Assembly: GCA_947503715.1 (NCBI GenBank)
Contig: CANNER010000004.1
Coordinates: forward strand, 186,001 to 250,000
DNA: 64,000 nucleotides
Direction of reading: 5' to 3'
From: an uncultured Caulobacterales bacterium
GTDB taxonomy: Bacteria; Pseudomonadota; Alphaproteobacteria; Caulobacterales; Maricaulaceae
Made by a program: the position numbers and the translations under genes. This document shows, piece after piece, positions 1-16,841 of the stretch (the stretch's first letter is position 1; each line of letters opens with the position of its first letter). The notes beneath the pieces are model-generated. The model did not search any database, was not told the origin of the DNA, and was given only the letters and a program-made list of their open reading frames with translations.

Positions 1-1574
1 ATTGCGGACTCATTAACGTCCAAAACGGGACGACGTTCTTCGTAGAGCAATGGCGTTACGGTTCCATCCTCAACGGCGCGCTGCATAGAGTAAGGGTGAA
101 CTATAGGGCCGAATTTATTCTCTGTCTTATTCTTCTTAAGAAGCGGCGTTCCTGTGAAGGCAATAAAAGCCGCCTTAGGCAGCGCTAACCGCATACGCTC
201 ATGGCTCTCCCCGCTATGGCTCCGATGCCCCTCATCAATCAGGACAATTAGGTTCGCGCTATCATTCTTAGCTTCATGGGACTTTACCGCACTTGAGAAA
301 CGCTGCACGGTGGCAAATAAGATGCGTTCTTTTCCTTTGCCGATACGTTTCGCAAGATCGCGCCCACTCTTAGCTTTGGCATCCGAAGGCTGGCCCTTAC
401 GCCCTAAAGCTCCCGCTGATGCAAAAGTCCGAGAGAGTTGTTTTTCAAGATCGAGTCGGTCAGTCACGACGATTATACGGCTCTGTGCGAGCGCATCATC
501 CATTAATAGCGCCTTGCACAGCAGTACCATCGTAAAGCTTTTACCTGATCCTGTGGTATGCCAGATAACGCCGCCATTGCGTGTTCCTTTATCATCGGTT
601 TCAGAGATACGCGCGAGTAAAGCCTTAATCCCGAAGACCTGTTGATAACGGGCGGCAATCTTACCCAGCTTACGGTCAAAAAAGATAGAATTACGGATGA
701 AGTCGAGCAGTCTATCAGGCGACAGAAGGCTGATAATCAATCGGTCTTGATCCGTTACAAGCTGGGGCGCAGAAAAATAAGCCTGCATCTGTTCGCGGAC
801 TTCTCCGCCGCGCCCATCTAACAAACTATTATCAGCGGCAGGCGTATTTTTGATACGGTCAAAATCTTCATCAGAGAGTATTTCCTCACGCCACTTCGCC
901 CAAAACTTCTTAGGCGTTTTCGCGGTGCCGTAACGTCCGTCTGTGCCATTAATAGCAAGCAATAACTGACTATAAGCAAATAAATGCGGAATTTCGTCGG
1001 GCTTCTGATTGCGGATTGATTGGCTGATACCCTCGTCCATCATGGACGTATTCGGGTTGCCGGAATCTGGTCGCTTGGCCTCTATGACGACCAGCGGCAA
1101 GCCATTCACAAAGCAGACAATATCGGGACGACGTGTCTTTATACCATCCACTTTTAGAACATCAAACTCCTCCGTTACGGCGAAGTGATTTTGGCTCGGG
1201 TCATTCCAATCGATTATCGGAATAGTTGGGGAGTGGGTTTTCCCGTCAACAAATTCAGTGACAGTAATGCCAAAGACAAGCTTGTTATAAATTCCCTCAT
1301 TTGCTGTGATGAGGCCTTCTTGCATGCGCGGCGCGGTTAATTCTCGCACAATCTGATCAATCGCATTATTAGAAATCGGGTAGCGCTGACCCTTATACTC
1401 AAATGTTCGCTTTTTTAGCGCGTCGATGAGATGGGTCTTCAAAACAACATTCTGATTTCCACCGCGCAAAGCTGAACACTCTAAAGGGTTGATGTATTCA
1501 TACCCTAATGTCTTGAGCAATTTGAGCGCTGGGATTTGCGCCGTAAAAATTTCGGCTGTGTTGGGGCGGGTCAT
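1..1574 (-). CDS. hsdR: Type I restriction enzyme R subunit (HsdR), C-terminus beyond window
   Basis: The motor and nuclease subunit of a type I restriction-modification system, which translocates and cuts unmodified DNA as part of the HsdR-HsdM-HsdS complex. About 524 residues are visible from the ATG at 1574 and the frame runs open to base 1, so the gene is cut by the window edge. A PD-(D/E)XK-type nuclease signature (RRPDIV, then VVIEAKRP near residue 163) is followed by a superfamily 2 helicase part: Walker A TTGSGKS near residue 341, DEGH motif II near 446 and FTGTP motif III just after. The start overlaps the stop of the SIR2-like gene by 4 bases (ATGA), so it is the last visible gene of the operon and probably translationally coupled. 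Confidence 0.95.
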   Translation of the reverse strand, partial: MTRPNTAEIFTAQIPALKLLKTLGYEYINPLECSALRGGNQNVVLKTHLIDALKKRTFEYKGQRYPISNNAIDQIVRELTAPRMQEGLITANEGIYNKLVFGITVTEFVDGKTHSPTIPIIDWNDPSQNHFAVTEEFDVLKVDGIKTRRPDIVCFVNGLPLVVIEAKRPDSGNPNTSMMDEGISQSIRNQKPDEIPHLFAYSQLLLAINGTDGRYGTAKTPKKFWAKWREEILSDEDFDRIKNTPAADNSLLDGRGGEVREQMQAYFSAPQLVTDQDRLIISLLSPDRLLDFIRNSIFFDRKLGKIAARYQQVFGIKALLARISETDDKGTRNGGVIWHTTGSGKSFTMVLLCKALLMDDALAQSRIIVVTDRLDLEKQLSRTFASAGALGRKGQPSDAKAKSGRDLAKRIGKGKERILFATVQRFSSAVKSHEAKNDSANLIVLIDEGHRSHSGESHERMRLALPKAAFIAFTGTPLLKKNKTENKFGPIVHPYSMQRAVEDGTVTPLLYEERRPVLDVNESA

Positions 1575-2611
1575 GGTGCATCCCATACATGAGCGGTGGC
1601 CGCGTCAAAAAAATGAACATTCAGAGGAAATGCGGGGTCACGAGTAGCTGCCCAGCCATGGGCACGTTCCCGAATGGCCGTATTAGCTTCGGAGTTTTCA
1701 TCGCCATGCAGGCTTATAAAAATTGCGCCACAATTGCCCTTTGAGATAGCCTTGAGTAAATGATTGTCATTTGAATCAAGAGAGTGTCCGTAAATAAAGA
1801 AGCAGCTATCAGCCTCTTTTCCTGCTTGTTGTAATTGCTCACTTGCATGAAACAAAAAGGGATTGTGAGAAATTTTTGTTTGTTTCTGAAGGCTCGTTCC
1901 CTCTGCGACAAACATGGGAAAATGCCCATCTTCAAGGTGTTGCCTACATTGATCCACGATTGGGCCACCATCTCGGCGCGGCGATAACTTTGTTATACTC
2001 GTTCCCGTATCAAACATATGAAGCGCACCATGTGGATAGTAAATACAAGCGGGCCGTGCAGATTGTGTTCCTGTCCAAAACAAATTTCCATCAGTTAAGC
2101 CAAAACCATCTGTCTTTCTGCATGGTAGAGCGGGCAGATCCTCTAGAGTATGTAAGACTGCCCAATAAAGGAGCAGATCATAATTGACGCTAAAAGCCTT
2201 ACCTTGGGTATCAGCGCCGATGAAATGCGTGAGAAACTGACGACAAGACCTATACTCTTCTTCTGTAATATCCCCAGGATTTGCAGGATGGTTCTCAGAG
2301 ATGGTTCTTATTAGTAACTCACGTAGCGCTGACTGATGTTCCCTGACGTTAACCAGCGTTTGGCCGTCAGGATCGTAAACTTCTAATACTTTCTCAGCAT
2401 TGTTGAGCGTTCTAATAACTAGCTCAAAGTCCCGACTACTAAGGCTTGCAAATAAAGCTGCAAGCTCAGGAGTTGCAGAAAAGTCAGCCTGTTCGAAAAG
2501 CGAATGATAAGTGAATATGTTTGGTCTACATGCGATACTAAACCCGTTGCCAAGTAGCAGGTTGCGCTTCGCATAGACTTCGCTGGCAGTTATAGCTTCC
2601 TCAAATGTCAC
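1571..2611 (-). CDS. SIR2-like (DUF4917-type) protein inside the type I R-M operon
   Basis: A 346-residue protein resembling the DUF4917 family, with a pattern that fits the SIR2/NAD-binding fold. I see GNGFS at residues 21-25 (nucleotide-binding loop), NYD at 143-145, HG at 194-195 and a late GHSLDSND at 275-282. The order and spacing match SIR2-like defence NADases, in which the Asn of NYD and the following His are catalytic. Whether this protein cleaves NAD is inference. It starts with GTG, overlaps the HAD gene by 4 bases (GTGA) and overlaps hsdR by 4 bases, so it is embedded in the restriction operon. It could be an abortive-infection effector coupled to restriction, or a catalytically dead accessory protein. 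Confidence 0.7.
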   Translation of the reverse strand: MTFEEAITASEVYAKRNLLLGNGFSIACRPNIFTYHSLFEQADFSATPELAALFASLSSRDFELVIRTLNNAEKVLEVYDPDGQTLVNVREHQSALRELLIRTISENHPANPGDITEEEYRSCRQFLTHFIGADTQGKAFSVNYDLLLYWAVLHTLEDLPALPCRKTDGFGLTDGNLFWTGTQSARPACIYYPHGALHMFDTGTSITKLSPRRDGGPIVDQCRQHLEDGHFPMFVAEGTSLQKQTKISHNPFLFHASEQLQQAGKEADSCFFIYGHSLDSNDNHLLKAISKGNCGAIFISLHGDENSEANTAIRERAHGWAATRDPAFPLNVHFFDAATAHVWDAP

Positions 2612-3501
2612 GCGTCATCCCTCACGAGCTTTAACCCTGCCGAGCGGGCCATTCGTCCTATGATACCTTTGACCTGAATATCCATATCGCTGTTTTCGGA
2701 GTAATCCGCTGCGGAAATAAAATTTGCCCGCTCATCCGCAATCAATCTGTGGATTTTGTCGAGTGATCGGCGATTTGCCTCTGGAGGATAGGCGGCAATG
2801 GCATATCCGCCATTATGCGAAGTCATTTTCATGGCGGGGATATCGGTATCGCCATCACCGATAAATATCATTCTTGAAAAGGGAACAGGGCGATCCGCTT
2901 CGGCGACAAAAGCATTCACGCCTTCATTGTCCCACGCATTTAGGATGCCTTTGTTAATACGGAAAAGGAACTGCGTTTTAGTCGTATAATTTATCGCTAG
3001 GTTTGGCCCGACGGCTTGACCCTCAGCATTAAATTCAAAACGACACGCAAAAATTTCTTTGAATTCATCCGCGATAGGGCTGCCTTCAATCATTTCCTGA
3101 TTACCAGAAGAAATAATATAGTGCTCTAATTGCAAGCCTTGTTTAGCCGCATAGTCATTCATCCGGTTAAACCAATTATTCTCACCTTGTAAGCCAGCAA
3201 AGAGTTGAGATGTTACGCCATGCGACCGTAATGACGCTTTGGTAACAGGCACATTTGCCACCTTAGCCATACGCAGCATAAGGCGCATGTAGACAAGGAT
3301 TTCATCAGCATCCTGAGATTCCTTCTCCGCTTTGACTTGAGACCAAAACTCCTGCGGTGTGCTTTGAATTGACGGCAGAAAGCTATCTTCTTGGATATTG
3401 CCTTTGGCCAAGGTGCCATCATAATCATAAACAATTGCGGCCCGCACAGGTTTTTTCGACCCTATCTCGACAGGAGGTTGTTTGTTAAATATCCCCATCA
3501 T
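2608..3501 (-). CDS. HAD-superfamily phosphatase in the R-M operon
   Basis: A 297-residue HAD-type hydrolase. The DxDGT nucleophile motif is at residues 26-30 (D26 nucleophile, D28 general acid/base), a motif II-like ISSGN lies near residue 132, and motif IV GDGDTD lies near 216. A cap of about 100 residues between motifs I and II suggests a phosphoserine-phosphatase-like C1 or related cap. The substrate cannot be told. It overlaps hsdS by 4 bases upstream and the SIR2-like gene by 4 bases downstream, so it is transcribed with restriction genes. A HAD phosphatase is not a standard type I subunit. It may process a nucleotide made or consumed by the neighbouring SIR2-like protein, but that is speculation. 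Confidence 0.8.
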   Translation of the reverse strand: MMGIFNKQPPVEIGSKKPVRAAIVYDYDGTLAKGNIQEDSFLPSIQSTPQEFWSQVKAEKESQDADEILVYMRLMLRMAKVANVPVTKASLRSHGVTSQLFAGLQGENNWFNRMNDYAAKQGLQLEHYIISSGNQEMIEGSPIADEFKEIFACRFEFNAEGQAVGPNLAINYTTKTQFLFRINKGILNAWDNEGVNAFVAEADRPVPFSRMIFIGDGDTDIPAMKMTSHNGGYAIAAYPPEANRRSLDKIHRLIADERANFISAADYSENSDMDIQVKGIIGRMARSAGLKLVRDDA

Positions 3502-4715
3502 GCCGCCACCTCCGTCAGTTTTACGCGCCGCTTGCCCGTGAGGAGCTGTTGCATCAGGGCGGATTTTTCGGTTTTTAGGGTTTGGAGTTTGGCTTTAAAC
3601 AGATGTGTTTCATCAGCAGCCATATCAATTATTGTCGCTATCGCTTGCTGTTCAGCGAAACTCGGGACTGAAATTTTAAAGGAGCGTAGATCGCGGAGGC
3701 TTATGTTTAATTGCGCCGCACCTGCGGCCATTCTCACAATATTATCCTGTAGTGGTGTTGACAAATACAGGTGCTGCAAGAAGCGGTTTGAGTTGTTTTT
3801 CTTGGCGTTTAGTTTGCCTACTCGCTGGTTCAGATAAAGGACATTTGATAAATTTGGCGATATCCACGCGTAATTCGACAAGCTGCCAGTCATTCCAAAA
3901 ACAAAATCTCCTGGGTGAAGAATAAAACGAGTAAGGCCTTCGGCCGCATAATCTGCGACGAAGCGTGGCTCGTCATTTTTCAAAACTCCCGCCTTGAGGT
4001 CATTCATACGAATTAGACGAAAACGCCCTTCTTCTAGAATGTCAGAACTCTTGAATGCGTTCCCCGAGGTTAGGTCGGCGACATCCCCCAACCGCACCTC
4101 GCGCCACGCCCCATTAAATCCGGGGAGGCGGCGTTTGCCGGTTAGGAGCTGTTGCATGAGGGCTTTCTTCTGGGCTTCGCCTTGGGCGACAAGCGTCTCG
4201 GTCGCCGCAATCGCCCGATCCCACGTCCCAAGAATTTCGGCGATATGTGTCCGCTGAGTTAGAGGAGGTAAAGGAATTTTCAGCTTCCTAAAGTCTTTAA
4301 GGTTCACTCGTCCAAATGTGCTACCTCCAAGTAACCTATAGATTTGTTTTGCAATAATATCTGATGCAAATAAGCTTTGGAGAAACTCAGGTGACGCTTC
4401 TGAACTTTTGACTAAAACTGTGTCTTGACCAATTACAAAGTCCGTTTGTTCATCAACTAAAGCCGCAATACCTACTTTTTGGTTACGGCCAATTATTAAG
4501 TCGCCTTTTTCAATTTTACAGTGGTCCATCAAGCTGTTTGCATCGGTTCTTGAAACGCGTCGCGCTCTTTCGAAATCGAGACCATCCCATTTGATGTCAC
4601 CTGGGGATATGATGGGAACACCAGTTTCAACATATGATGGAGTTCGATGCTTGCAGTCTATAACGGGCGCAATACTTTGGAGATCAAATAGCGTCCAATC
4701 TTCAGGAATTTCCAT
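3498..4715 (-). CDS. hsdS: Type I R-M specificity subunit HsdS, two TRDs
   Basis: DNA-recognition subunit that fixes the bipartite target for both methylation and cleavage. About 405 residues contain two target recognition domains (starting near residues 5 and 205), each followed by a helical spacer. The spacers end in near-identical repeats, ALMQQLLTGKRRLPGF in the middle and ALMQQLLTGKRRV near the C-terminus, the internal duplication typical of HsdS. I chose the ATG at 4715 over the upstream TTG at 4727 because GGAGG lies about 6 bases before it. With this start it overlaps rhuM by 14 bases. Residues of the TRDs do not allow the target sequence to be read. Confidence 0.93.
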   Translation of the reverse strand: MEIPEDWTLFDLQSIAPVIDCKHRTPSYVETGVPIISPGDIKWDGLDFERARRVSRTDANSLMDHCKIEKGDLIIGRNQKVGIAALVDEQTDFVIGQDTVLVKSSEASPEFLQSLFASDIIAKQIYRLLGGSTFGRVNLKDFRKLKIPLPPLTQRTHIAEILGTWDRAIAATETLVAQGEAQKKALMQQLLTGKRRLPGFNGAWREVRLGDVADLTSGNAFKSSDILEEGRFRLIRMNDLKAGVLKNDEPRFVADYAAEGLTRFILHPGDFVFGMTGSLSNYAWISPNLSNVLYLNQRVGKLNAKKNNSNRFLQHLYLSTPLQDNIVRMAAGAAQLNISLRDLRSFKISVPSFAEQQAIATIIDMAADETHLFKAKLQTLKTEKSALMQQLLTGKRRVKLTEVAA

Positions 4716-5769
4716 CACCGCCTCCAATTTTCTTGGTCGGCTTAGCGGTCAGTGATTTCACTGTTTTCTCAAAGTCCGAATTAATCGTCTGTGTTTTGTT
4801 GAACTCGGCATATTCCGCGAGTGCTTTCTTTTTCATATCTTTACTCTTGATACGGCCTTTGCCTCTCAAAAGCTTATACTCATTGAAACTCAGGAATTTA
4901 TCGACGCTGGCCGCCATATCCGTCATGTTCATTTTGGTACGGTTTTCGATAATGTTTTCGATGTAGTCGAAAAACCCCGAAACGGTGCGTTCCAGTTTTT
5001 TAATCTCGTTCTCTTTCAGATAGTTTTTTGCGACCGTCACATCGGACGATAAGATACGTCCATCGGGCGCGTTTTTCCATGTCGTCAGCCCCATATTGGG
5101 CGCGGTGTGGTCAGCGGCCTGATGCGCGATTTCCGCCGCTGTTTTACCTGTAATCGCAAAATGGAATTTGTTCTGCACCATGGCGTAAAAATCCTGCGCG
5201 GTCTTTGACCCAGAGTCATAATCCGTGCTGATCTCTGCGAATATGTCGGTGATTTGTAAATAGATACGCCGCTCACTGGCGCGAATCGAGCGGACACGCT
5301 CAAGAAGCTCTTTAAAGTAATCTTCGCCAAAGACGTTTTCCGCTTGCTTCAAGCGGTCATCATCCATCACAAAGCCCTTTCTGATGAACTCTTTGAGGAT
5401 GCCCGTCGCCCAGATACGGAACTGTGTCGCGCGGCGCGAATTCACGCGGTAGCCCACGGCGATAATGGCGTCGAGGTTATAGTAATCTAGCGCCCGTTTC
5501 ACTTCTCTCTTACCCTCGGTTTGAACCGTTTCCATAATGGAAACGGTTGCCTTTCTGGAGAGCTCTCCTGACTCATAGATATTCTTCAAATGCTTGGAAA
5601 TAGCTGGCTTCTGTACATCGAATAACTCAGCCATCTGTGTAAGCGTCAGCCAGATTGTCTCCGCCTGCATAAGAACTGTAACGGAGACAGAGCCGTCTTC
5701 ACCCTCATAGAGGATAAAGGGTGCGCCGCCTTCATTCGGGTCGTCAGGTATGCTGATATCCTTACTCAC
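4702..5769 (-). CDS. rhuM: RhuM family protein
   Basis: A 355-residue protein of the RhuM family, often found between hsdM and hsdS in type I loci; its biochemical role is not established. The N-terminal part (about residues 30-130) has the family pattern QMAELFDVQKPAISKHLKNI, which looks like a helix-turn-helix, then RALDYYNLDAIIAVGYRVNS and a conserved RIWATGILKEFIRKGF. The C-terminal part is charged and helical. It starts with GTG, overlapping the hsdM stop by 4 bases (GTGA). It may regulate the operon or act as an added DNA-binding component; this is inference from the helix-turn-helix and position. Confidence 0.85.
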   Translation of the reverse strand: MSKDISIPDDPNEGGAPFILYEGEDGSVSVTVLMQAETIWLTLTQMAELFDVQKPAISKHLKNIYESGELSRKATVSIMETVQTEGKREVKRALDYYNLDAIIAVGYRVNSRRATQFRIWATGILKEFIRKGFVMDDDRLKQAENVFGEDYFKELLERVRSIRASERRIYLQITDIFAEISTDYDSGSKTAQDFYAMVQNKFHFAITGKTAAEIAHQAADHTAPNMGLTTWKNAPDGRILSSDVTVAKNYLKENEIKKLERTVSGFFDYIENIIENRTKMNMTDMAASVDKFLSFNEYKLLRGKGRIKSKDMKKKALAEYAEFNKTQTINSDFEKTVKSLTAKPTKKIGGGDGNS

Positions 5770-7283
5770 GCGTCATACCCCAACTCTTTAAGGTAGCCAT
5801 CCATCTGGACTTCGAGTGCAGCCAGTTCCGCTTTGAGTTTTTCACGATCTTTGCGAACGGCCATGAGGTCAATCTCCGCCTCTTCCTCAAAGGTGTCGAC
5901 ATAGCGAGGGATGTTGAGATTATAGTCATTCTCAGCCATGTCCGCTTGCGTCACGAGCGCAGCATATTTCTCTACGCCCTTGGGGTCACGCTCACGATAG
6001 GTCTTTAAGATTTTGTCGAGCTGATCTTTGCCCAACGCGTTTTGGTTTTTGCCGGACACAAAGTCATTGCTCGCATCGATGAATAAGGTTTTCTCATCCG
6101 ACTTATTCTTGCGCAGCACCAAAATGGCGGCTGGGATGCCTGTGCCGTAAAATAATTTTTCAGGCAGGCCGATGACGGCATCGATTAGGTTTTCTTCGAC
6201 GAGTTTGGCGCGGATACGTCCCTCCGCTGCCCCGCGAAACAACACCCCATGCGGCACAACTACGGCCATGCGTCCGCTTCCGGGTTTCAGTGTTTCAATC
6301 ATATGAAGGATAAAAGCATAATCGCCTTTAGTGCGCGGTGGGATGCCTCTGCGGAAACGTCCATAGGCATCATCTTCAGCCGTGCCGTGTCCCCATTTAT
6401 CTAAACTGAAAGGCGGGTTGGCGACGACTATATCGAAATGGCGTAGACCTTCGGTTTTGGTGAGGAGCTTGGGATTGCGAATTGTATCGCCCCATTCAAT
6501 GCGGTGATTATCCTCGCCATGCAGAAACATATTCATCTTGGCGAGAGCCCATGTGCTGCCGATGGATTCTTGACCATAGAGCGCGTATTTTTTTGAACCT
6601 GTACGCTTTGCGATAAGCTGCCCGCATTTCATCAAGAGCGAGCCTGACCCACAAGCGGGGTCACAAATTTCATCACCAGATTGCGGGTCCACAAGCTCCG
6701 CCATGAGGTCAGAGACTTCTGGCGGCGTATAGAACTCACCCGCGCTTTTGCCTGAACCCGCTGCGAAGTTCTTTATCAAATGCTCGTAGGCATTCCCGAT
6801 AACGTCGAGCTTGCCGACTCGCGACGGGCGCAGGTCAAGCTCGGCTCGGTTGAAGTCTTCGAGCAATCTTCCCAGTAATTCGTTCTTCTGCGCCTCTTCT
6901 CCCAAACGCGTAGAGTTGAAACTAATGTCCTGAAAGACATCGCGGAGTTTGCCGATATTAGCCTCTTCAATTGCATGTAACGCTTTGTCGATACGCTCGC
7001 CATTGCCGGGCTGGAATCTCTCATCATAAAGGGAGTAAAAATCTGCGCCTTCGGGGAGGTTAAAGCGCTCCGTCTTCATCATCTCCTGAATGAGCTTCGG
7101 CTCATCACCATATTCCTCTTGATATTTGCGATAGTGATCGCGCCAAACGTCGCTGATATATTTCACAAATAGCATCGTCAGGACGTAGTCCTTATAGATG
7201 GATGCATCCACTGTCCCTCGGAAGGTGTTGCAAACCGCCCAAACGGCGGCGTTTATATCTTCTTGTTTAATCGCATCTGTCAT
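5766..7283 (-). CDS. hsdM: Type I R-M DNA methyltransferase subunit HsdM
   Basis: N6-adenine methyltransferase subunit of the type I complex; it methylates the target chosen by HsdS with S-adenosylmethionine. The 505 residues show an N-terminal helical domain (1-140), a SAM-binding motif I DPACGSGSLL at 208-217, and the catalytic motif IV NPPF at 289-292. The C-terminal end is a coiled-coil-like helix. Length is usual for HsdM. The ATG overlaps the stop of the upstream one-TRD HsdS-like gene by 4 bases (ATGA), and its stop overlaps rhuM by 4 bases. Confidence 0.96.
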   Translation of the reverse strand: MTDAIKQEDINAAVWAVCNTFRGTVDASIYKDYVLTMLFVKYISDVWRDHYRKYQEEYGDEPKLIQEMMKTERFNLPEGADFYSLYDERFQPGNGERIDKALHAIEEANIGKLRDVFQDISFNSTRLGEEAQKNELLGRLLEDFNRAELDLRPSRVGKLDVIGNAYEHLIKNFAAGSGKSAGEFYTPPEVSDLMAELVDPQSGDEICDPACGSGSLLMKCGQLIAKRTGSKKYALYGQESIGSTWALAKMNMFLHGEDNHRIEWGDTIRNPKLLTKTEGLRHFDIVVANPPFSLDKWGHGTAEDDAYGRFRRGIPPRTKGDYAFILHMIETLKPGSGRMAVVVPHGVLFRGAAEGRIRAKLVEENLIDAVIGLPEKLFYGTGIPAAILVLRKNKSDEKTLFIDASNDFVSGKNQNALGKDQLDKILKTYRERDPKGVEKYAALVTQADMAENDYNLNIPRYVDTFEEEAEIDLMAVRKDREKLKAELAALEVQMDGYLKELGYDA

Positions 7284-8357: not shown

Positions 8358-8594
8358 ATGCCAGTCACACCTGAAGTTCTTTCCGACAATCAAAAACTCG
8401 CTGCCGACATTCGCGAGGCGATGGTTATTCTGGCGAAGGTTATTCGCAAATTTGGAGATGCCCCTTGGCCGTTGATGGAGCGTTTCCAGCGCGAACTGAA
8501 AGCTCTCGAAGACCGCGAAGCGCTCCTTGTTGATCTACTAGGCGAAGCGCCTGACAGTGCTTCTAAGGGGCCAGATTTGCCAGACTTTGGGTAA
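8358..8594 (+). CDS. Small helical protein of unknown function
   Basis: A 78-residue ORF that I do not recognise. The product looks mainly helical and charged (residues 10-65, with ERFQRELKALEDREALLVDLLGE), ending in an acidic, proline-containing tail. There is no membrane segment or signal peptide. A TATAAT box sits just six bases upstream, so the transcript may be leaderless or the start slightly different. Its last 32 bases run into the convergent integrase gene. It could be a small accessory protein of the restriction island. Confidence 0.5.
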   Translation: MPVTPEVLSDNQKLAADIREAMVILAKVIRKFGDAPWPLMERFQRELKALEDREALLVDLLGEAPDSASKGPDLPDFG

Positions 8595-9936
8595 GTCCAT
8601 CGCTTACGGGATGCGCGATTTTAAGCATCTCTCTCCGTCGATATTCTAGCGAACCTCCGTCGCCATATTGAGGTCTTGTGTTCTTGTGGCCCATCAATGT
8701 GCAACGCAATCCATAGTCTAATCCAGCCTCCTGCATGCGCTTTTCAAAGGCATGGCGGAAGCTATAGATGCGGTGCTTTTTCGTCGGCATTAGGCCGCGT
8801 GTGTGAAAGGTTTTAAGCAGTGCTGCGGATAGAGAGTTGCCCTTGTCACGGTAACGCGGGAAGCCATTTGGAGCGCGTTTCATCGCCTCTAATGACACAC
8901 CGATAAGCGGAACATCACGCGCGGATGCCATAGATTTAAGCTCTCTATTCGCGGTTGGACGGATGCGAATATGCGGCACCTCAGCATCCAAACAGATGTT
9001 TTCCGGCAGTAAGTTTGCTATCTCGCTGGGCCTGCACCCTGTCTCGATAAGGGCGTAGGCGATGATCTGCGCTTCCGTGTTTATACCGTCTAAGACATTC
9101 GGCTTTAGGATTTTTGACTGCACCCAATCGTTAGAAAATGAGGGCGTCGCTTCGGTTGGCGTGTCCTTAAACCGAAGTTTTCTGAACGGGTTTTCTCGGT
9201 CCTCCTCGCCTTGATAAGTCCAATACTCCCGAAAGAGCTGGCGTAGATTTCCTAGCTCTCGGTTCGCGCTATTAGGGCGGTATGTTCTGGCGTTGGAGCT
9301 ATCACCCCGTAGGCGCTCACCCCACCAATCATAGAACTGCCGCCCATGTTTTCGAGCTATCTCATCCATCGTTAGATTTCCGCAAAGTGCCACAAAATGT
9401 TCCACAGCGCGGGTCTTCGTGGCTTTCCACCTGACGATTTGTTCGGGCGACTTACGGCTCGTATCGCCAATGCTCAGCTTGTCGCAATAGAGCTTAAAGG
9501 CATCGCGGATGGTGTCCTTCGGCGGCTCTATTGTGCCTAAGACAGCTTGTGTATCTATCTCAGTTATCTCGTCGCTCTTAAGTGTTTGCACACGCTCTAA
9601 CACCTTCTCAATCGGCTCTTCATGGAGGAGGGATGGGAACGGTTTGAAGTCAAAGCCAACAGCCACAGCACGGCGTCTAGCCGTTCTATAGCGGCACATT
9701 TCAGCCGACTCTTGAACGGCTTCTCCGGTCTTTTCAGCTAACGCTGTTTCCCAAAAATGCTCATCGGAATCCATGTACCTGTCGCGCATTTCACGGGCGA
9801 TTGTGAGGGAGTCTGTGTGCAAGGCTTTCTTCACCCTGCGGCGTTTATCGATGCTTTGATAACGGGATGGAACGCGGCGCACATAATACCAAGTGTGGCC
9901 ACGTTGTTCTAAGTAGTGATTTTGGCGAATGGTCAT
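8563..9936 (-). CDS. Tyrosine recombinase/integrase with N-terminal DUF6538-like segment
   Basis: A 457-residue site-specific recombinase. The N-terminus (residues 8-30, HTWYYVRRVPSRY) matches the DUF6538-type arm domain of phage and island integrases. A core-binding region occupies about 140-250. The catalytic part shows R302 (TGCRPSEIA), R394 in YSFRHAF, H417 in LMGHK and Y424 in PQYG. The usual first His of box II is Tyr (Y391), a substitution also seen in other recombinases. It is transcribed leftward, away from the tRNA-Arg fragment at 10060-10086, so it probably belongs to the restriction-carrying island on the left. Confidence 0.92.
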   Translation of the reverse strand: MTIRQNHYLEQRGHTWYYVRRVPSRYQSIDKRRRVKKALHTDSLTIAREMRDRYMDSDEHFWETALAEKTGEAVQESAEMCRYRTARRRAVAVGFDFKPFPSLLHEEPIEKVLERVQTLKSDEITEIDTQAVLGTIEPPKDTIRDAFKLYCDKLSIGDTSRKSPEQIVRWKATKTRAVEHFVALCGNLTMDEIARKHGRQFYDWWGERLRGDSSNARTYRPNSANRELGNLRQLFREYWTYQGEEDRENPFRKLRFKDTPTEATPSFSNDWVQSKILKPNVLDGINTEAQIIAYALIETGCRPSEIANLLPENICLDAEVPHIRIRPTANRELKSMASARDVPLIGVSLEAMKRAPNGFPRYRDKGNSLSAALLKTFHTRGLMPTKKHRIYSFRHAFEKRMQEAGLDYGLRCTLMGHKNTRPQYGDGGSLEYRRREMLKIAHPVSDGLTQSLANLAP

Positions 9937-10059: not shown

Positions 10060-10076
10060 AAATGGCGCACTGGGGA
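10060..10076. repeat. Probable att site: copy of the tRNA-Arg 3' end
   Basis: The 17 bases AAATGGCGCACTGGGGA are identical to 16825-16841, which covers the encoded CCA, discriminator and acceptor-strand 3' end of the intact tRNA-Arg(ACG). After four bases with three mismatches both copies continue TCGAAC, so the homology reaches into the T-loop (to about 10086). This is the footprint left when an island inserts into a tRNA 3' end. It marks the left boundary of the 6.8-kb element and lies between two divergent integrases. Confidence 0.8.
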
Positions 10077-15026: not shown

Positions 15027-15836
15027 TTGCCAAGCAAGATAAAAGACGTAAGTTTTAAACTATATGGACTGCTCCACGAAAAAAATGGGGCGGTGAGGGC
15101 CGAGGTTTTTGCTAAAAAACTATCTGACTTTGTCAAAGGTCTGAAGGCTGCTGACAAACACGTTAATGGTAAAAAAGCCGCCAATCATCTTATTACCGAC
15201 CTGCAGTATGGAAGCGCATTGGCCACAATATCCGAGGAAGTTTATAGTACCAAAGTCCAATTTGAGTCTTCTGGGATCGAATACTACCAGCAAGTGGCGA
15301 ACGATATTGCGACGGGAAATCCTATCCCGTCTGACACTCCTGTTGCTGTTGTAAAAAGTTTGGCGCGTCTCGGAGACGGAGCAGACAAAACTTTTTCTCA
15401 TGGGGAAATGCAGCTACCCGAAAACGACGCAACTATTGTTAGGCTCGATGAGTTTTTTGATCGACAAGCGGAGGTTTGGCTCGATAGCTTTACAAAGCCT
15501 GATCGAGGAGAAGCCTTTTTCGAAGGCACCTCGTTTGGGGAGTTTGATGGCACGATTAAAGAGGTTGATCTGCGGGGAAAAATCCACAGCGCGAAACTGA
15601 TATTATCCGCTGGTGGAGTGGAATTAGATTGTATCTGCAATTCCGTTTCCGTTACCAATTTAAGAGAAACGCTGGATAAAAGAGTTATTGTGCAAGCTGC
15701 GGCTATGTATAATGGACATCATCGCCTTCCTGAGCGCCTTGATATAAAGCTTATTACACCAGTAATTGAGGGAAACCTTAGGCGCTGGCGCGGAGCTTTT
15801 GACATACCTTCCCGTAAAAGCGGGGATCTATGGTAA
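15027..15836 (+). CDS. Hypothetical partner of the PIN-domain gene
   Basis: I do not recognise this 269-residue protein. It begins with TTG at 15027 behind an AGAGGTCAGAAG ribosome-binding region. The N-terminal half is helical (VFAKKLSDFVKGLKAADKHVNGKK). The C-terminal half has alternating strands (GTIKEVDLRGKIHSAKLILSAG and RLDIKLITPVI), possibly a small beta-barrel. It overlaps the PIN gene by seven bases, so the two are almost surely one unit. By position it could be an antitoxin, a sensor or a DNA/RNA-targeting partner. It is much larger than classic VapB antitoxins, so a simple VapBC system is unlikely. Confidence 0.7.
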   Translation: MPSKIKDVSFKLYGLLHEKNGAVRAEVFAKKLSDFVKGLKAADKHVNGKKAANHLITDLQYGSALATISEEVYSTKVQFESSGIEYYQQVANDIATGNPIPSDTPVAVVKSLARLGDGADKTFSHGEMQLPENDATIVRLDEFFDRQAEVWLDSFTKPDRGEAFFEGTSFGEFDGTIKEVDLRGKIHSAKLILSAGGVELDCICNSVSVTNLRETLDKRVIVQAAAMYNGHHRLPERLDIKLITPVIEGNLRRWRGAFDIPSRKSGDLW

Positions 15837-16411
15837 TGGCTATCAGCAACCTATTTTGGGACTCTAATGTCTTTATTGCTTTCCTAAATGACGAAAAGGA
15901 AATCTATGACATTCCAAGCATTGAGCAATATTTGGAGGATGCCAGACAGGGCAAGTGTAAGATATACACGTCCTCAATCGTATTTACAGAAGTCACACCT
16001 AAAAAGCTTGTGAAATCGGAGTACGGTACATTCAATGACTTTATAGCCGACTTTAGAGGCCAAGTTATTACAATAGGGAATGATCCTATTATTGGGTCTC
16101 TCGCTGGAGAGTTGAAAGACCTGCCATATAAGAAAAGCAACTCTACAAAACGCATTCTAACAACCGGCGATGCTATTATGCTTGCAACTGCATTGGAGCT
16201 AGAATCCAGCTATGGCGTTGAGCTGGATATATTTCATACCTTTGATAACGGAGGCGGCCCGCGTAGTCCCGAGGGGGGTAAAGCTATTCCAATGCTTACA
16301 TATCAAGATTGGTGCGAGGGTATTGAGAGCGATCCGCTTGCCGCGAGGGTGATAGAGATGGATCGGCGCAAGCCAATCCATCCCACACCTAATATGTTTA
16401 CCTCTTACTGA
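15830..16411 (+). CDS. PIN-domain ribonuclease-like protein
   Basis: A 193-residue protein with a PIN fold. The acidic residues expected for metal-dependent RNA cleavage are visible: D11 in FWDSN, E54 in FTEV, D114 in TTGDAIMLATAL and D139 in FHTFD. The C-terminal 50 residues extend beyond a minimal PIN domain. It overlaps the preceding gene by seven bases and ends 136 bases before the tRNA-like gene. It could be the toxic or effector nuclease of a two-gene toxin or defence module; the target RNA is unknown. Confidence 0.82.
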   Translation: MVMAISNLFWDSNVFIAFLNDEKEIYDIPSIEQYLEDARQGKCKIYTSSIVFTEVTPKKLVKSEYGTFNDFIADFRGQVITIGNDPIIGSLAGELKDLPYKKSNSTKRILTTGDAIMLATALELESSYGVELDIFHTFDNGGGPRSPEGGKAIPMLTYQDWCEGIESDPLAARVIEMDRRKPIHPTPNMFTSY

Positions 16412-16824: not shown

Positions 16825-16841
16825 AAATGGCGCACTGGGGA
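16825..16841. repeat. Probable att site at the tRNA-Arg 3' end
   Basis: Seventeen bases identical to 10060-10076, covering three bases beyond the tRNA, the encoded CCA and the 3' acceptor strand of tRNA-Arg(ACG). It marks the tRNA-proximal boundary of the 6.8-kb island. Confidence 0.8.

Follow-up and report, generated by a model that had tools for sequence, protein, structure and literature searches.

Within its host operon, the anticodon nuclease gene prrC sits between hsdS and hsdR. Two reports describe how prrC is lodged in a type IC restriction system that also controls it (PMC12707154, PMC3874165), and a third places rloA and rloB inside the hsd region of Campylobacter (PMC2928727). Described here is a type I operon in which genes for a HAD phosphatase and for a SIR2-like protein of the family DUF4917 lie between hsdS and hsdR. 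It was found in a 64,000-nucleotide stretch, hereafter called the window, from an uncultured Caulobacterales bacterium (GenBank assembly GCA_947503715.1, contig CANNER010000004.1, positions 186,001 to 250,000). From its predicted structure, the DUF4917 protein is likely a SIR2-type NADase, and the hsdS-hsdR gap in which its gene lies is a cargo slot with interchangeable genes. Both extra proteins match, over nearly their full lengths, candidate families for which PADLOC gives no mechanism: PDC-S21 (DUF4917) and PDC-S34 (HAD). The PDC families, from a 2024 preprint by Payne et al., are reportedly phage-defense candidates whose genes are embedded in known defense systems. A literature search found no paper naming PDC-S21 or PDC-S34; the sole paper found that names DUF4917 has it beside a TIR gene in a gene table (PMC6690266).

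The 346-amino-acid (aa) protein matched PF16263 (DUF4917) over its full length at 171.8 bits, against a cut-off of 28, and the PDC-S21 model PDLC04960 covered nearly all of it. With E-values of 3.1e-50 and 3.3e-108 for these two models, and of 1.3e-104 for the HAD protein against PDC-S34, the matches are not due to chance. No real match to the 346-aa protein was found in NCBIfam, and membership of AbiH was rejected at a Pfam E-value of only 0.1. A structure was predicted with AlphaFold2 from the window protein and 18 relatives (predicted local distance difference test score, pLDDT, 86.4; predicted TM-score 0.84). Foldseek comparison of this model with the PDB gave 38 matches at E ≤ 0.001, the first 34 of which were SIR2-HerA entries; the best, to the SIR2 of SIR2-HerA, had an E-value of 1.9e-11, and ThsA, SPARSA and a sirtuin came after this group, with DSR2 at about 0.001. 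In the model, the protein has a SIR2 (Rossmann-type) fold. Sequence searches of the PDB with single proteins returned nothing useful, and a single-protein scan of genome contigs yielded one locus.

The Asn and His of SIR2 enzymes are catalytic residues. In two alignments of DUF4917 proteins (17/17 and 19/19 sequences), residues N22, G23, S25, N143, Y144, D145, H194, G195 and H284 were invariant, and in a comparison of the family profile with PsSIR2 (8w9l) the NYD and HG motifs fell in register with those of PsSIR2, at a sub-threshold E-value of 0.19. The model and these motifs suggest that the protein would hydrolyze NAD (nicotinamide adenine dinucleotide). An earlier note, made on this DNA from its letters and open reading frames (ORFs), had proposed a SIR2 fold with catalytic motifs; the model, the Foldseek matches (ThsA and DSR2 among them) and the invariant Asn and His agree with it, its residue numbers were correct for NYD (143-145) and HG (194-195) and for D26-x-D28-G-T30 of the HAD protein, and the GNGFS that it named falls at 21-25. 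In a tree, the window sequence had an end branch of 1.22, long beside the median of 0.31, though the catalytic motifs were kept.

The operon runs on the minus strand in the order half-hsdS, hsdM, RhuM, hsdS, HAD, DUF4917, hsdR and a YgjP/SprT-type gene (Table 1), and domain profiles placed HsdM, HsdS and HsdR, with their domains, all within it. Four-base overlaps join hsdS to HAD (ATGA), HAD to DUF4917 (GTGA) and DUF4917 to hsdR (ATGA), and are also seen at the hsdM/RhuM and half-hsdS/hsdM junctions. The DUF4917/hsdR overlap requires that hsdR start at the ATG at 1574 rather than at 1586, where the longer listed ORF begins. For hsdS, an ATG at 4715, which follows GGAGG, appears a likelier start than the listed TTG. 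A Pfam scan of the window operon showed no TIR domain. The ORFs and junction sequences confirmed the coordinates given in the earlier note and the overlapping HAD and SIR2-like genes between hsdS and hsdR, while the operon proved longer than it had described, including the half-hsdS, hsdM, RhuM and SprT-type genes as well. Content also varies in the gap between hsdM and hsdS, a second such site, which is occupied by RhuM, ORF6N or BRO-type genes (window, L166, L168, L174; L-numbers denote loci).

Related operons were collected with the full HsdR as query, which matched 442 plasmid records and 20 of 398 phylum genomes, the window's included; six of the plasmid records were opened, plus L143, which was found via SprT. 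The slot sample comprised the 26 operons, window included, in which both hsdS and hsdR could be read. Left out were L143 (a near copy of L142), L150, L176 and L177 (contig ends), L164 and L181 (hsdS not recognized), L167 (contig end before hsdS, with Abi and Fic genes before hsdR) and L023, L024 and L102 (other HsdR families). Genes in these loci were found from ORFs and by phmmer or tblastn against reference proteins, a procedure by which genes can be missed. The slot was filled in 23 of the 26 operons by unrelated, often defense-type genes (Table 1) and was empty in three (L141, L168, L178). Six of the operons (L015-L017, L080, L110, L111) were picked via HAD or DUF4917, which inflates the counts for those two genes. 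The Abi gene of L165, the sole slot Abi gene run against PADLOC, matched AbiD. In two alphaproteobacterial plasmids, a gene annotated as Shedu nuclease directly precedes HAD in the slot.

Two HsdR clades were distinguished, the window's at 52-63% identity to the window HsdR and the other at 35-38%. Apart from the window, every operon whose slot contains HAD or DUF4917 falls in the 35-38% clade. Neither gene was seen in any of the 18 annotated loci among the 19 non-own loci found via HsdR, some of which were cut short (L150 was not annotated). A YgjP/SprT-type gene follows hsdR in loci of both clades wherever the flank is present, and is partial in L179.

DUF4917 was also followed outside the window. 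PF16263 matched eight of 385 class genomes, and PDLC04960 matched 15 of 398 phylum genomes. Among the 48 DUF4917 loci gathered, the window counted, are near copies and short contigs, and some of the matches are weak and partial; four of the 34 plasmid records with DUF4917 are in this set, three more were opened later, and some matching genomes were not opened. In seven of the 48 loci (window, L110, L111, L099, L102, L023, L024) DUF4917 lay in or beside type I genes, and on a 36-row DUF4917 tree the type I label required four changes, all forced by well-supported branches (against viral-contig rows only). A single clade of the window, L110 and L111 sequences was weakly rejected (p 0.044), which leaves room for a single entry. 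Copies with no recognized hsd gene occurred in prophage-like contigs (L118, L124) and on plasmids (L025, L026, L208-L210), and on one E. coli and one Pseudomonas plasmid no hsd or HAD gene is annotated within 4 kb of DUF4917. In IMG/VR contigs the gene is reverse-oriented cargo, lying between neck and baseplate genes in L118, whose gene order may be read as P2-like, and between terminase and spanin genes in L124.

The HAD protein matched the PDC-S34 model PDLC05002 over nearly its full length, and the NCBIfam and Pfam HAD models only below their cut-offs. The HAD-IB motifs DxDxT, S, K and GDGxxD and a HAD fold were all present in alignment and model, with D26, D28, T30, K175, K184, G215, D216 and D220 invariant in 18/18 sequences and S131 nearly so. 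The model (pLDDT 86.8), built from a four-row alignment, was nearest to cytosolic 5'-nucleotidase III and SerB. Among the 385 class genomes, 20 carried the gene, and hsd genes adjoined it only in the window genome and in G073 (L080). In two trees (ultrafast bootstrap 97 and 95), the closest grouping of the window HAD was with proteins from the same order whose genes are not near hsd genes. A clade of all embedded HADs was rejected (approximately unbiased test, p 0.002; five rows, group named before the tree, four distant rows left out of the tree), as was one without L080 (p 0.007; four rows, a group chosen once the first tree had been seen). The tree allows either one gain with losses or several gains, and rejection of a single clade is consistent with repeated entry into hsd operons, in which case the putative phosphatase would have some use of its own there. 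It is best read as separate slot cargo, with a history apart from that of the SIR2 protein and no evident connection to it.

Table 1 Features of the window operon and its surroundings, and genes found in the hsdS-hsdR slot of related operons. Positions are those of the window unless a locus is given.
Feature	Position or locus	Strand	Evidence or remark
Half-length hsdS-like gene, one specificity domain, 235 aa	7280..7987	-	PF01420 E 5e-7
hsdM	5766..7283	-	PF02384 E 7.9e-104; HsdM_N E 1.6e-22
RhuM-family gene (PDC-S05) between hsdM and hsdS	4702..5769	-	PF13310 E 7.3e-104; PDLC04868 E 1.3e-147
hsdS	3498..4727	-	PF01420 E 3.8e-34; listed start TTG 4727
HAD-IB-type phosphatase, PDC-S34, 297 aa	2608..3501	-	PDLC05002 E 1.3e-104; Pfam HAD E 6.8e-5, below cut-off
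DUF4917 / PDC-S21 SIR2-like protein, 346 aa, GTG start, predicted NADase effector	1571..2611	-	PF16263 E 3.1e-50; PDLC04960 E 3.3e-108
GNGFS, residues 21-25, predicted nucleotide-binding loop	2537..2551	-	N22, G23, S25 invariant in 17/17 and 19/19
NYD, residues 143-145, predicted catalytic Asn	2177..2185	-	invariant in 17/17 and 19/19
HG, residues 194-195, predicted catalytic His	2027..2032	-	invariant in 17/17 and 19/19
hsdR, N-terminal part, running past window start	1..1574	-	HSDR_N E 2.2e-42; SWI2_SNF2 E 8e-67
Full hsdR ORF	L108:8326-11586		1086 aa counted from longer start
YgjP/SprT-type metallopeptidase gene, after hsdR, outside window	L108:7616-8329		
Tyrosine-integrase-like gene with DUF6538, upstream of operon	8563..9936	-	PF20172 E 2.1e-7; Phage_integrase E 1.6e-4, below cut-off
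17-bp att-like direct repeat	10060..10076	+	identical copies at 16825-16841 (tRNA-Arg 3' end) and 2683 bases before window start
Second integrase gene	10284-11465		
Gene with weak PIN match	15830-16411		E 0.006, below cut-off
Slot: Abi-family gene, 5 operons	L140, L165, L169, L173, L175		with NucS-domain gene in L140
Slot: HAD, 5 operons	window, L015, L080, L016, L017		after Shedu in L016 and L017
Slot: gene annotated as Shedu nuclease	L016:6551-8002, L017:6542-8005		
Slot: DUF4917, 3 operons	window, L110, L111		
Slot: Fic, 2 operons	L138, L166		with AbiLi- and RloB-like genes in L166
Slot: YecA, 2 operons	L142, L171		with further 620-aa ORF in L171
Slot: PDDEXK nuclease gene, 2 operons	L139, L172		
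Slot: DUF3800, 2 operons	L174, L180		
Slot: single-operon occupants	L137, L170, L179		KwaB, RhuM and DUF6119, respectively
DUF4917 flanked by HTH-M78 and TIR genes	L092 (4814-8251)		
DUF4917 two genes away from TIR gene	L093 (9118-13193)		
DUF4917 88 bases before TIR gene, Aliarcobacter plasmid	L208 (3965-5801)		

The earlier note had read the SIR2-like and HAD proteins as one unit, in which the HAD enzyme would make or remove a nucleotide signal or act as a brake on the NADase. The two genes are indeed adjacent and overlapping, and the structures nearest to the HAD model make a nucleotide substrate thinkable. However, the survey of hsd operons revealed no recurrent adjacency: the pair occurred in one of the 26 operons and one of the 48 DUF4917 loci, while HAD was found without DUF4917 in four operons (alone in two, with Shedu in two) and DUF4917 without HAD in two. 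About 0.6 joint occurrences would be expected by chance in 26 operons, against the one observed in a sample partly chosen via these genes. A HAD of the window type was absent from all 47 other fetched DUF4917 loci, no plasmid record was common to the two match lists (34 for DUF4917, nine for HAD), and among the 385 class genomes only the window's own had both; in genome G614 both were present, on different contigs. The HAD family also lies mostly away from recognized hsd genes (18 of the 20 class genomes). Separability in the operons and loci surveyed, together with the HAD tree, led us to reject a conserved SIR2-HAD pair, and a functional couple, which would account for this locus only, is in our judgment very improbable. 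The statement in the earlier note that no type I variant with this pair had been described stands insofar as no paper on the exact pair was found (preprints were not covered); both genes do match PADLOC candidate families, however, and extra genes in hsd operons, such as prrC and rloA/rloB, have long been known.

We consider it probable, with real room for doubt, that the DUF4917 protein is a SIR2-type NADase acting autonomously in abortive infection, its gene being cargo of a mobile type I restriction operon, with HAD as a separate cargo. Upon sensing phage infection the enzyme would degrade NAD, so that the infected cell stops growing. As an autonomous defense gene in the slot (half-S, M, RhuM, S, slot, R, SprT), it would share the expression of the operon, through the four-base overlaps, and its mobility, and would act as a second layer when restriction fails. 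We infer the NADase activity, anti-phage role, infection trigger, co-expression and HAD function; the observations beneath them are the fold of the model, the conservation of the motifs, the position in the operon, the variability of the slot, the separability of the genes and the copies without hsd genes. The alternative is a guard like PrrC, in which HsdMSR would hold the DUF4917 protein inactive until phage antirestriction proteins free it and NAD is depleted. Slot position and overlaps suit such a guard equally well, the DUF4917 gene does lie inside a type I operon, the association with type I genes recurs (seven of 48 loci, four well-supported changes on the tree), and PrrC itself is sequestered by the complex in whose type IC operon its gene is embedded (PMC12707154, PMC3874165). 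A guard does not explain the copies without any recognized hsd gene, however; the slot occupants are unrelated families with no common interface with the complex evident, three of the 26 slots are empty, and none of the three Pfam and three PADLOC families listed for the protein is an anticodon nuclease of the PrrC type. We hold the guard to be unlikely, and prefer autonomous cargo because it explains the fold, the motifs, the hsd-free copies and the interchangeable slot, whereas a guard explains the position and overlaps.

Several further observations weigh against an autonomous NADase. In the first 30 Foldseek rows the TM-scores reach only 0.54-0.64, with root-mean-square deviations of 5.4-7.8, and similarity to SIR2 at the sequence level is weak (PADLOC SIR2 E 0.03; PDB profile match E 0.19). 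DUF4917 was not seen at hsd genes in 41 of the 48 loci; some copies have housekeeping-like neighbors (a P-type ATPase in L091; sigma-70 and PGK in L094), and one lies by arsenic resistance genes (L210). No DUF4917 match was found in 50,697 GenBank phage records, and the apparent phage link comes from IMG/VR contigs, with neighbors tested in L118 and L124 only. A similar fold does not by itself determine which reaction is catalyzed, and sirtuins are also among the matches, so a SIR2 fold with another activity (ADP-ribosyl transfer, hydrolysis of another nucleotide or a binding role) has to be weighed too. This appears distinctly unlikely, the nearest structures being SIR2 proteins of defense systems, not deacetylases, and the Asn/His pair being kept.

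The surroundings of the operon suggest two tandem islands at one tRNA-Arg gene. Three identical copies of a 17-bp att-like repeat bound two intervals; no fourth copy with up to three mismatches was found in the 114 kb scanned. The first interval, of about 12.7 kb, holds the DUF6538 integrase-like gene and the hsd operon, which probably lies on a 12.7-kb island, and the second holds another integrase gene along with one that matches PIN weakly. A search of the genus for an empty island site showed none; its flank and tRNA matches could not be placed together. In Ruegeria (L141), too, hsdM has a DUF6538 integrase gene about 1.4 kb upstream of it.

In Thoeris, a TIR protein drives the SIR2 NADase ThsA. 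Three DUF4917 loci contain a TIR gene at or near DUF4917 (Table 1), and HTH-M78 (ImmA/IrrE-like) genes stand next to DUF4917 in L100 and L101 as well as in L092; these combinations with TIR (three loci) or HTH-M78 (three loci) are possibly Thoeris-like pairs. With the first two TIR proteins as phmmer queries, the 48 DUF4917 loci yielded no additional TIR gene.

DUF4917, a candidate family with no stated mechanism, thereby gains a likely enzymatic identity, predicted from its model, as a SIR2-type NADase. The hsdS-hsdR gap of a mobile family of type I operons, marked by hsdR followed by the SprT-type gene, emerges as a swap site for unrelated, often defense-type genes, and whether such cargo genes are independent layers or are wired to the restriction complex becomes a testable question. 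Should the guard be true, a SIR2 NADase would be a second, unrelated solution to the problem solved by PrrC, and the remaining occupants of the slot (Fic, Abi, KwaB, YecA, HAD) would add still more solutions at the same socket.

Compared with SIR2-HerA (Nezha), ThsA, SPARSA and DSR2, the DUF4917 protein is alike in fold, in a GxGxS-like loop and in the Asn and His, at 10-17% identity to structures of these types in the 50 Foldseek rows listed; it differs in that the window operon lacks HerA, TIR and Argonaute genes, and in the absence of a large extra domain. With DS-9, a defense system of a metallophosphatase and a HAD protein, the window operon shares the HAD phosphatase, whose defense function is called unknown in the DefensePredictor report (PMC13092281); the partner there is a metallophosphatase, not SIR2, and the passage on it does not mention hsd genes. 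PrrC/EcoprrI and RloA-RloB of Campylobacter resemble the window in that a type I locus has taken in an additional gene. PrrC, however, is an anticodon nuclease, the DUF4917 protein matched no such family, and control of DUF4917 by the complex is only hypothetical. Plasmids and islands also carry hsdM-S-[cargo]-R-SprT operons, which have the same backbone and slot as the window with different cargo; among those surveyed, HAD plus DUF4917 is the cargo of the window only.

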